Below the pieces are notes generated by a model. The model was not told the origin of the DNA and did not search any database. It saw nothing but the letters and a program-made list of their open reading frames with translations. A stretch of 64,000 bases of DNA, taken from Roseofilum casamattae BLCC-M143. Its GTDB lineage: Bacteria > Cyanobacteriota > Cyanobacteriia > Cyanobacteriales > Desertifilaceae. Each line of letters starts with the position of its first letter. Positions within the stretch are counted from its first letter, which is position 1. Below are positions 9,305 to 12,678 of the stretch, piece by piece. The stretch covers positions 1 through 64,000 of the forward strand of contig NZ_JAQOSQ010000004.1 of the NCBI RefSeq assembly GCF_030068455.1, written 5' to 3'. The position numbers were made by a program, and so were the translations under genes.

Positions 9305-9523
9305 ATGGCTGTTGAAAAAGTAAACTCTTCATCAAGTCTCGGAGAAGTCATCGATCGCATTCTTGACAAAGGCATTGTCATTGATGCTTGGGTTCGAGTT
9401 TCTCTGGTGGGAATCGAGCTACTGGCGATTGAAGCTCGCGTGGTTATTGCCTCCGTCGAGACCTACCTCAAATATGCTGAAGCAGTTGGTCTGACCACTC
9501 AAGCTGCCGTTCCAGCCGTATAA
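9305..9523 (+). CDS. gvpA: gas vesicle major structural protein GvpA
   Basis: GvpA (72 aa) forms the ribs of the gas-vesicle shell and gives buoyancy. The sequence [20 protein letters not shown], the segment [20 protein letters not shown] and the C-terminus [13 protein letters not shown] are near-invariant features of the family. The start at 9305 is preceded by AGGGAAG at a good distance; a longer frame opening 48 nt upstream lacks family sequence. Only one copy is seen, although many cyanobacteria have tandem copies. The 253 bp upstream presumably hold the operon promoter, but I could not pick out a convincing -35/-10 pair there. Confidence 0.97.
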
Positions 9524-9614: not shown

Positions 9615-10466
9615 ATGGCTCTGATAGACCAGTGGCGATCGCAAAGACACCAGCGGCAACTCGACGATCGCAACCGCCGAGTTGCAGTCCAAACCCACAT
9701 TCAACGCTTAAATACTCAACGGCAGTTAGAGACTCAGCAGCTCCAGGCAAATTTACACCAATTTCGCAACGACCTAGCCCGCTCGGAAGCCGATCGCTCT
9801 CTGGAGGCACAAGAGCGACAATCCAAGCTCCAAGCCACCATCGTTCAGTGGCAACAATACACCCAAACATCTCTCCAACAGGCTCGCAGCCATCGCCAAG
9901 AGCAACATCAAGCCTTACAACACGAACTCCAAGAATATATTGAAGACCTGCGGCTGCAAATTGCCAGCTATTTTCAATACCTCGAAGAACTGCGCCAACA
10001 GCGCCAGGAAGACATTGAAGAGCGCAAAGCCAATTTCGCGACCTTCCAAGTTGAAGCGCAAGAGCACCTACAGCATTGCAGTCGCGATCGCCAGAGCAGG
10101 GCAAGAGCGGAACAATTAGAACGGCATAACCACCGAATGAACTTGTATCGATCGGTCTGGGGAGATGGAGAACTCCCAGAATTGCCTGCCCCGACTCCAG
10201 CGCCAGAACCAATAGCCGTAAAACCAACCCCTTCAACTCCCCAGACCACCTCCGCTCCCCTACCTCCATCGGATACAGAAACCATAAATTTTAGTTCCAC
10301 CGAAGAAGAACAAGTTTATACATTCCTCCAAAAGTCCCCGGACTCCCGGTTAAGTGCCATTGAAGGAGCGCTAGGGATTAACCGCATCCAAGCCGTCGAT
10401 ACCCTCCGCTCGTTAATTAAGCGCGGTCTGGTCACTCAGCGCGATCGCCTCTACTCCGTCATCTAA
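9615..10466 (+). CDS. gvpC: GvpC-like gas vesicle strengthening protein with winged-helix-like C-terminus
   Basis: The 283-aa protein starts [15 protein letters not shown] and is almost entirely charged helix rich in Gln, Arg and Glu through about residue 185. That matches GvpC, which wraps the outside of the vesicle and stiffens it. The 33-residue periodicity of classical GvpC is only weakly visible. A Pro-rich linker (about 192-222) leads to a C-terminal domain (about 229-283) with [18 protein letters not shown] and RGLV, the pattern of a small winged helix. A related domain ends GvpN, the next gene. The gene lies between gvpA and gvpN and a GGAGAA precedes the ATG. The name rests on position and composition more than on close similarity. 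Confidence 0.75.
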
Positions 10467-10473
10467 CCTCCTC

Positions 10474-11583
10474 ATGCCCACCCTACTCAATGCCCGTTCT
10501 AAAGGGTTCGTCAATACCCCAACCCTAGAACGACTGACTGCCCGGGCCTTGCGATATCTCCAATCCGGCTTTGCCGTCCACCTGCGCGGCCCCGCCGGAA
10601 CCGGCAAAACCACCCTCGCCCTACATTTAGCCGACCTCCTCAGTCGCCCCATCATGCTCATCTTCGGCGACGACGAACTGAAAACCTCCGATCTCATCGG
10701 CAACCAAGCCGGGTATACTCGCAAAAAAATTGTCGATAACTACATCCACAGCGTCGTCAAACTCGAAGACGAACTGCGGAAAAATTGGGTAGACTCTCGC
10801 CTCACCCTCGCTGCCAAAGAAGGCTTTACCCTAGTTTACGACGAATTCAATCGCTCTCGACCCGAAGTCAACAACGTCCTCCTCTCCACCCTCGAAGAAA
10901 AACTACTCGTCCTTCCTCCCAACAACAGCCGCAGCGAATACATCCGCGTCCATCCCCAATTTCGGGCCATTTTCACCTCTAACCCCGAAGAATATTGCGG
11001 CGTCCATGCCACCCAAGACGCCCTCCTCGACCGGTTGGTGACCTTAAATATGCCCGACCCCGAAGCCCAGACCCAAGTGGCTATTTTAGTGGAAAAAATC
11101 GGCGTTACTCCCGAAGAAGCTTCGACTATCGTCAATCTGGTCGTCGAGTTTCAGCAAACTACGGAAATGCCCAAAACCATGGGATTGCGATCGGGGTTAA
11201 TGATTGCCAAAATTTGTCACGAACACCAAATTGCGATCGCTCTCGAACAGACAACCTTTCGCGAAGTTTGCGAAGATATCTTACTCTCGCGTACCGATCT
11301 CTCCCTCGCCTCTGCCCATCTCGCCTTGCAGAAAATTTTCCAGGGTTCCCGGAAGCAACCAACAACAACTCAACCCGCAGTCCCATCTGCACCCACCTCG
11401 GGCGCTTCTGGCTCAACTTTAGAGCGAGTTTATTCCTTCCTCTATCAAACCCAAGGCGCCAAACTTGCAGAAATTGAAACAACGATAGGTTTAAATCGGA
11501 TCGAAACGGTCAATATTTTACGCAGCCTGATGGAACAAGGCAAAATTCGCCTGAACGAACAGCGCCAGTATATTCCGCAATAA
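10474..11583 (+). CDS. gvpN: gas vesicle AAA+ ATPase GvpN with extra C-terminal domain
   Basis: GvpN is a MoxR-type AAA+ ATPase needed for full vesicle growth. The Walker A loop is GPAGTGKTT (39-47), the Walker B is LVYDEFNRS (D123, E124), and IFTSNPEEY is the sensor-1 region. The classical protein ends near residue 300; here a Pro/Thr linker and a winged-helix-like tail follow (about 315-369: [18 protein letters not shown]). The tail matches the C-terminus of the preceding GvpC in 17 of roughly 50 aligned positions by my count. The start is 7 bp after the gvpC stop, which indicates co-translation. Confidence 0.92.
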
Positions 11584-11607: not shown

Positions 11608-11949
11608 ATGGCTCCTAACCCCCGTCCCATTACCTCACCCCAAAGTTCGACCCTTGCCGATGTTCTCGAGCGAGTGTTAGACAAAGGAGTCGTCATTGCC
11701 GGCGATATCTCCGTATCGGTGGGATCGACTGAGTTACTGAACGTGCGCATTCGCTTGCTCATTTCCTCAGTCGATAAAGCCAAAGAAATTGGGATTAACT
11801 GGTGGGAGAGCGATCCTTACTTGAGCAGTAACCACAAGCAACTGCAAGAAACGAACCAGCGCCTGCTCGAGCGCATCGAGCACTTGGAAACCCAACTAAA
11901 AACTTTACAAGGGTCGGCAGAAATTGAAGAGCCGAGTCCTTCGGAGTAA
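11608..11949 (+). CDS. gvpJ: minor gas vesicle protein GvpJ (GvpA-like)
   Basis: The 113-aa protein has a GvpA-type core: SSTLADVLERVLDKGVVI, followed by GDISVSVGSTELLNVRIRLL. It then extends with a coiled-coil C-terminus (HKQLQETNQRLLERIEHLE) ending in an acidic tail. This matches GvpJ, a minor homologue thought to shape or nucleate the conical ends of the vesicle. The gene follows gvpN by 24 bp. GvpM is a close relative and cannot be fully excluded, but cyanobacterial clusters normally carry GvpJ at this position. Confidence 0.85.
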   Translation: MAPNPRPITSPQSSTLADVLERVLDKGVVIAGDISVSVGSTELLNVRIRLLISSVDKAKEIGINWWESDPYLSSNHKQLQETNQRLLERIEHLETQLKTLQGSAEIEEPSPSE

Positions 11950-11977
11950 ACTAATAGAGGTTGCGTGGAAAAGTTTG

Positions 11978-12139
11978 ATGGCAAAAACATATATCTCTTC
12001 CGAACAGTATCGGCAAATGTTGGTCAAAGAGGGCGATCGCCGCTTCCAACAATGGCATACTCAATATTTAGACTATCAAAAACACTATCTCAAAGATATG
12101 GAGACGCGGAGACAACAGCGATCGGGTCACTCTAACTAA
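11978..12139 (+). CDS. small protein in the gas vesicle cluster, unrecognised
   Basis: A 53-aa, strongly charged protein starts MAKTYISSEQYRQMLVKEGD and continues with aromatic/basic residues (QWHTQYLDYQKHYLK). I do not recognise a family. Its location between gvpJ (28 bp upstream) and gvpK (32 bp downstream), on the same strand, makes an accessory role in vesicle assembly likely. The frame can be extended upstream to 11924, but that would overlap gvpJ; the ATG at 11978 is preferred. Alternative: a remnant of a longer gvp gene. Confidence 0.6.
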   Translation: MAKTYISSEQYRQMLVKEGDRRFQQWHTQYLDYQKHYLKDMETRRQQRSGHSN

Positions 12140-12171: not shown

Positions 12172-12678
12172 ATGAATTCTTCCCCAATTATTCCCTCATC
12201 TGGCAATGCTCCGGACTCGGGATTAGCCCCCTTATTGCTAACCGTCGTGGAATTAATTCGTCAGTTAATGGAAGCGCAAGTAATCCGTCGCATGGATTCC
12301 CAATTACTAACCGATGAAGAATTAGACCGCGCGGCTGAAAGCTTGCAGCGATTGGAAGAACAGGTAATTAACTTATGCGATATTTTTGAGATCGATCCCG
12401 CCGATCTCAATATCGATCTGGGAGAAATTGGCTCGCTGTTGCCCAAAGAAGGCTATTATCCGGGAGAGAAAAGTAGCGATCGCGCATCAATTCTCGAACT
12501 CCTCGACCGCCTCCTGCATACAGGTATTGTCATTCAAGGAGATGTCGATCTCGGACTGGCACAACTCGATTTAATCCATGCCAAACTGCGGTTAATTCTT
12601 ACCTCTAAACCCATCGATCGCTCAAATAACAGCGAGACACAACCCGGTAGGGTGGGCACCGCCCACCTGCCCAATTGA
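12172..12678 (+). CDS. gvpK: gas vesicle protein GvpK
   Basis: The 168-aa protein has the GvpK core (GLAPLLLTVVELIRQLMEAQ, then LLTDEELDRAAESLQRLEEQ, then DPADLNIDLGEIGSLLP) and the C-terminal GvpA-like segment typical of cyanobacterial GvpK (ILELLDRLLHTGIVI, LGLAQLDLIHAKLRLIL). It is required for vesicle formation, probably in early assembly. The start at 12172 is an ATG; a TTG 12 nt upstream is also in frame. An A/T-rich stretch of TTAATTATTAATTG type precedes the gene. The last 15 residues after the GvpA-like part are not conserved in type. It is the last gvp gene seen: gvpF/L, gvpG, gvpV and gvpW are not in the window. Confidence 0.93.
   Translation: MNSSPIIPSSGNAPDSGLAPLLLTVVELIRQLMEAQVIRRMDSQLLTDEELDRAAESLQRLEEQVINLCDIFEIDPADLNIDLGEIGSLLPKEGYYPGEKSSDRASILELLDRLLHTGIVIQGDVDLGLAQLDLIHAKLRLILTSKPIDRSNNSETQPGRVGTAHLPN

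Follow-up and report, generated by a model that had tools for sequence, protein, structure and literature searches.

Related C-terminal winged-helix tails on cyanobacterial GvpC and GvpN, putative docking modules of gas-vesicle assembly

The gas-vesicle proteins GvpC and GvpN encoded in the window (the whole 64,000-nucleotide stretch of Roseofilum casamattae BLCC-M143 DNA analyzed here) end in related domains, both of which are predicted with high confidence by structure modeling to be minimal winged helices behind variable linkers. GvpC stiffens gas vesicles, and GvpN is an ATPase that makes vesicles elongate. We propose that the tails are putative protein-docking modules that would bring GvpC and GvpN to the growth site, either via each other or via a shared partner, and we regard this reading as evenly poised between right and wrong. 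It is built on the computed homology of the tails, their predicted fold, their occurrence at gas-vesicle loci only among the genomes searched, the purifying selection on them, their early split, and their independent loss; from these we infer that the ligand would be a protein and that the function would be recruitment to the growth site.

Window genes, tail homology, and predicted fold

Table 1. Gas-vesicle genes of the window and the domain parts of GvpC and GvpN
Feature	Position	Strand	Basis or remark
gvpA, upstream neighbor	9306..9523	+	PF00741 at 9335-9451
GvpC ORF	9615-10466	+	283 aa
GvpC coiled-coil core, residues 1-188, up to the ..LYRSVWG motif	9615..10178	+	ORF
GvpC Pro/Thr/Ala-rich linker, residues 189-228	10179..10298	+	Sequence
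GvpC predicted winged-helix tail, residues 229-283	10299..10463	+	TrmB match, AF2, Foldseek
GvpN ORF	10474-11583	+	369 aa
GvpN AAA+ domain, residues 1-290	10474..11343	+	TIGR02640 gas_vesic_GvpN
GvpN linker, residues 291-312, predicted disordered	11344..11409	+	AF2 pLDDT <50 for 295-312
GvpN predicted winged-helix tail, residues 313-369	11410..11580	+	AF2
gvpJ, downstream neighbor	11608..11949	+	PF00741, 56 bits
gvpK with C-terminal GvpA-like domain	12172..12678	+	PF05121 and PF00741, single ORF

Window GvpN is a member of TIGR02640 (380.4 bits over residues 12 to 273; cutoff, 266.8), and window GvpC is identified as GvpC by gvpA-gvpC-gvpN synteny, by its coiled coil, and by orthology to accepted GvpCs. 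Two accepted GvpCs from Planktothrix, the tail-bearing protein of PCC 11201 and the truncated protein of PCC 7821, have the end motif in common. The 33-residue repeats of PF01304 were not matched in window GvpC or in 3 other tail-bearing GvpCs, in a search in which a repeat-type GvpC used as a control scored 158.9 bits. A VWG-type end of the core is common to nearly all GvpCs compared and sits where repeat-type GvpCs terminate (..FRQDLFVSIFG).

Other features of the cluster were noted in passing. A small ORF between gvpJ and gvpK (11960-12139; MAKTYISSEQYRQML..) is conserved in other cyanobacterial gvp clusters and had no Pfam family above the cutoff; it was rejected as a candidate tail partner because it is also present in tailless clusters (L044 and L047). 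The fusion of gvpK with a GvpA-like domain has, as judged by eye, a like arrangement in L202, a rearranged Nostocaceae gvp cluster that also includes an ORF for a Cdc48-like double-AAA ATPase (L202 8295-10130). The GvpF/L genes of the window genome (G000) lie elsewhere than the gvpACNJK contig, at C6:1932-2642 and C12:5027-5707.

The sequence-only reading had claimed that GvpC and GvpN carry related C-terminal winged-helix domains, with a common pattern VY-x-FL ... G and 17 identities over about 50 residues. Our recount over the ungapped stretch agrees with that number, and a BLASTP comparison of whole GvpC with whole GvpN gives a single significant match, which is the tails (26 of 68 residues identical, linker included; E value, 3e-11). 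The TrmB family (PF01978; cutoff, 25.6 bits) matches the isolated GvpC tail above its cutoff, at 26.1 bits, and the GvpN tail weakly and below it, at 18.5 bits; when whole proteins are searched, both GvpC (22.8 bits) and GvpN (17.3 bits) fall below the cutoff. AF2, run on alignments of the locus proteins, predicts for both tails the winged helix that the earlier reading had expected, with three helices and a two-strand wing. The GvpC tail has a pLDDT of 97.3. In the full-length GvpN model, the tail reaches about 95 (block means of 94 to 96 for residues 321 to 369; H315-326 H331-338 H342-354 E358-360 E366-368), a low-confidence linker precedes it, and confidence elsewhere is moderate (mean, 72). 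The nearest Foldseek match of the GvpC tail is the Zbeta domain of ZBP1, a Z-nucleic-acid-binding domain (3eyi_B; TM score, 0.90; E value, 3.6e-4), and MarR, CadC, and IclR folds are also close.

Those best fold matches, to Zbeta and to MarR-type repressors, together with the TrmB matches, are what would be expected if the tails served to anchor vesicles, or GvpN, on nucleic acid (DNA or RNA), whether for nucleoid positioning or regulation. The Arg and Lys residues that GvpC tails conserve in the recognition helix and the wing are consistent with this as well (alignment columns R32, 100%; R40, 88%; R52, 79%; R55, 93%), and the Arg conservation, which also suits nucleic acid, counts against a docking function. 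Some AAA+ proteins, such as RuvB and Cdc6/Orc, end in a DNA-binding winged helix, which we count in favor of nucleic-acid binding too. Against it, both tails are close to neutral on average (net charge, -0.3), the residue after R32 is mostly hydrophobic (F in 73% of GvpC tails), a D or N lies two-thirds along the contact face, and the wing is often missing from the GvpN tail. Zalpha domains contact their ligand through Asn and Tyr on helix 3 and Pro-Pro-x-Trp in the wing. At the two helix positions the tail has V and R, and its wing reads R-D-R-x-Y. Moreover, the domain is confined to gas-vesicle proteins in the genomes searched. We therefore consider nucleic-acid binding unlikely, and the earlier suggestion that the tails bind nucleic acid to report vesicle state found no specific support.

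This confinement was determined with tail-profile searches that covered cyanobacterial-class genomes, phages, and plasmids. In 116 sampled genomes, all 67 of 67 strong tail hits (at least 51 bits) are at gvp loci, as matched by position to the GvpN search with G003 and G009 checked individually, and the next match has only 23.7 bits, which rules out a general cyanobacterial domain. The profile had no match in phages and one in plasmids, which is the GvpN of Nostoc sphaeroides, so that occurrence on plasmids or phages outside gvp loci is likewise ruled out.

Distribution and independent loss of the tails

Of 390 cyanobacterial-class genomes searched for GvpN, 182 encode it. We read the loci of 89 of these 182 genomes and a further 80 named loci, scored the tails with an iterated profile, and removed duplicates, which left 141 distinct gvpN loci; the tail states of a few loci were assigned by hand from sequence reading. 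Both tails are present in 76 of the 141 loci, which bears out the co-occurrence that the sequence-only reading had proposed to look for in other cyanobacterial gvp clusters. Only the GvpC tail is found in 14 loci, only the GvpN tail in 12, and neither in 15; GvpC could not be judged in 24. That reading had also described classical GvpC and GvpN as lacking such domains, which is correct for the 33-residue-repeat GvpC but not in general, since many cyanobacterial GvpC and GvpN proteins carry them.

Among named relatives, Roseofilum is nearest to the window (80 to 82% GvpN identity). Leptolyngbya PCC 6406, Oscillatoria PCC 10802, and Planktothrix PCC 11201 carry both tails. In Planktothrix rubescens PCC 7821, GvpC ends shortly after VWG and has no tail, and Arthrospira PCC 9108 (L102) carries its GvpC tail out of frame; the GvpN tail is retained in each. 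The Arthrospira locus has repeated gvpA-gvpC units ahead of gvpN, and the out-of-frame tail is that of the last GvpC. Repeat-type GvpCs of Nostocaceae terminate at the end motif, and a set of 193 Nostocaceae genomes includes 21 with two tails and 15 with a single tail. In one of the two-tail genomes (G335), gvpA and a tail-bearing gvpC are located ~6 kb from gvpN with both tails retained; frame sizes and spacing in the 21 are mostly G335-like, the detail having been read for G335 only.

Two further variants were seen. In L056 and L058-L065, which are probably Pseudanabaena-type, GvpN has no tail, and GvpC has another conserved domain at its C terminus (KIEQFVVDYVAQLS..DPSDILNTLLQMAE), which is present in one copy per genome and has no Pfam match. 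In genus g121, GvpN gives two matches per genome, and a split gene or an intein was considered; the pieces lie within one open frame in G162 and G217, which indicates simple divergence.

Divergence, selection, and the proposed function

Mean tail identity is 54% among GvpCs and 40% among GvpNs, and a GvpC tail is 42% identical to the GvpN tail of its own genome and 40.5% identical to those of other genomes (own greater than cross, P = 0.007). A tree constrained to a single GvpC/GvpN split has a higher likelihood than the free tree (p-AU, 0.78, from few columns). Because GvpC tails are nearer to other GvpC tails than to their own GvpN tail and because the tree fits a single split, the duplication is ancient, and the two tails, as judged from their sequences, diverged early. 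Thus, of the earlier suggestion that the domain was duplicated between neighbors, a common origin by duplication stands, but recent duplication or gene conversion is ruled out by these identities and the single-split tree.

The tail is the best-conserved part of GvpC. Between the window and Roseofilum it is 79 to 81% identical, compared with 44 to 49% for the coil and 32 to 41% for the linker, and its dN/dS ratio is about 0.1 to 0.16; the GvpN tail is conserved as well, and the GvpN linker is 9 to 30% identical. Median GvpC-tail scores do not drop when GvpN has no tail (84.2 and 84.3 bits). GvpN tails are under purifying selection where GvpC is tailless (dN, 0.135; dS, 2.4; L036/L041), and their median score there is 53 bits versus 65 bits otherwise, a difference that may reflect phylogeny only.

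The homologous tails on adjoining genes, the number of loci with both, and their persistence together despite gene separation in G335 are consistent with an obligate heterodimer of the two tails, which is the homotypic GvpC-GvpN contact of the earlier reading. As an obligate pair, however, this does not hold up: each tail has been lost independently, with the survivor conserved. Since strong GvpC tails occur without a GvpN tail and the reverse, and since purifying selection on GvpN tails continues where GvpC lacks its own, we consider an obligate pair very unlikely. The tails are also minimal domains without the extra dimerization helices of MarR/ArsR folds, and their covariation, given the AAA+ domain as a measure of GvpN phylogeny, is weak and falls short of significance (partial Mantel r = 0.09, P = 0.1), which counts against the docking reading as well. 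Independent losses with a conserved survivor instead favor a shared or separate partner.

That the domain is found, among the genomes covered, on these two proteins only, behind variable linkers, under selection, and mostly co-retained argues for a role within gas-vesicle assembly. In the docking mechanism that we propose, both tails would be copies of one gas-vesicle-dedicated winged-helix domain on a flexible linker, with the GvpC tail jutting out from the shell-bound coiled coil and the GvpN tail hanging off the AAA+ domain. In this way, the stiffener and the elongation ATPase would be gathered where the shell is growing, and GvpC and GvpN may bind each other there or a putative shared partner of the assembly machinery.

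A short conserved motif, x-P-[QP]-x-R-[VIL]-I-P, follows the AAA+ domain in 13 GvpN loci that lack the winged helix (some of them duplicates; L017, L018, L021, L022, L026, L028, L073, and L075 are included) and is absent from every GvpN that has a winged helix. It may be plain inheritance, since the 13 loci are largely one clade. A more elaborate and improbable possibility is that a repurposed winged helix serves as a gas-vesicle-only docking code, by which GvpC and GvpN come together at the growth site on a shared receptor, and that in this one clade, whose GvpN has lost the helix, the motif acts in its place as a peptide bound by the GvpC tail.

Taken together, the data point to a gas-vesicle-dedicated docking module that has been partly lost by laboratory model strains. 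Most mechanistic work has used strains whose GvpC lacks the domain, which would have kept a widespread and conserved link between stiffener and ATPase out of view, and a GvpC docking module would offer a handle for engineered vesicles. Being small and separable, and predicted with confidence, the tails lend themselves to direct tests of this question.

Comparison with known systems

The tails are similar to TrmB/MarR-type winged helices (PF01978 and PF01047) in fold and weakly in sequence, but they have no ligand or dimerization region, are fused to gas-vesicle proteins, and score under the family cutoffs when whole proteins are searched. The 33-residue-repeat GvpC of the Anabaena/Dolichospermum type (PF01304) is likewise a coiled coil encoded after gvpA and has a similar end motif (..SIFG versus ..VWG), at which it terminates without linker or tail.

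In Halobacterium GvpC, which resembles that of the window in this layout, a small globular domain sits C-terminal to a repeat core and contacts GvpN; Halobacterium GvpN bound the C-terminal GvpC fragment much better than the N-terminal fragment (PMC9372576). By analogy, this is the sole experimental precedent that we found for GvpN meeting the GvpC C terminus. Unlike the window tail, the Halobacterium domain has a zinc-finger motif, and haloarchaeal GvpNs align to window GvpN over about residues 10 to 273 only, which excludes the tail. C-terminal fragments of Halobacterium GvpC also associate strongly with one another, and monomeric GvpC is recovered with GvpN in pulldowns (PMC9372576), which, with the conservation of the GvpC tail independently of the GvpN tail, would fit tails that network GvpC on the shell while the GvpN tail caps or competes. 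We think such cross-linking quite unlikely, because the Halobacterium domain is of the zinc-finger type and because GvpN tails persist beside tailless GvpCs.

In Planktothrix, a 28-amino-acid stretch of the GvpC40 C terminus is 64% identical to GvpN, and the last 60 amino acids of GvpC40 resemble the GvpC of Geitlerinema PCC 7407 (Sci Rep 2017, PMC5259702). The region of similarity is the same tail, which we found in L101. Planktic Planktothrix strains float by gas vesicles (PMC5259702) and PCC 7821 has a tailless GvpC, so vesicle formation in that strain does not require a GvpC tail, which counts against the docking reading. The 2017 paper gave no fold, function, or survey beyond its strains, and our search, which covered the open-access literature, found no earlier description of a winged helix in either protein. 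The short similarity between GvpC and GvpN was thus known from Planktothrix (PMC5259702), and what this analysis adds is the predicted fold and the wider distribution.
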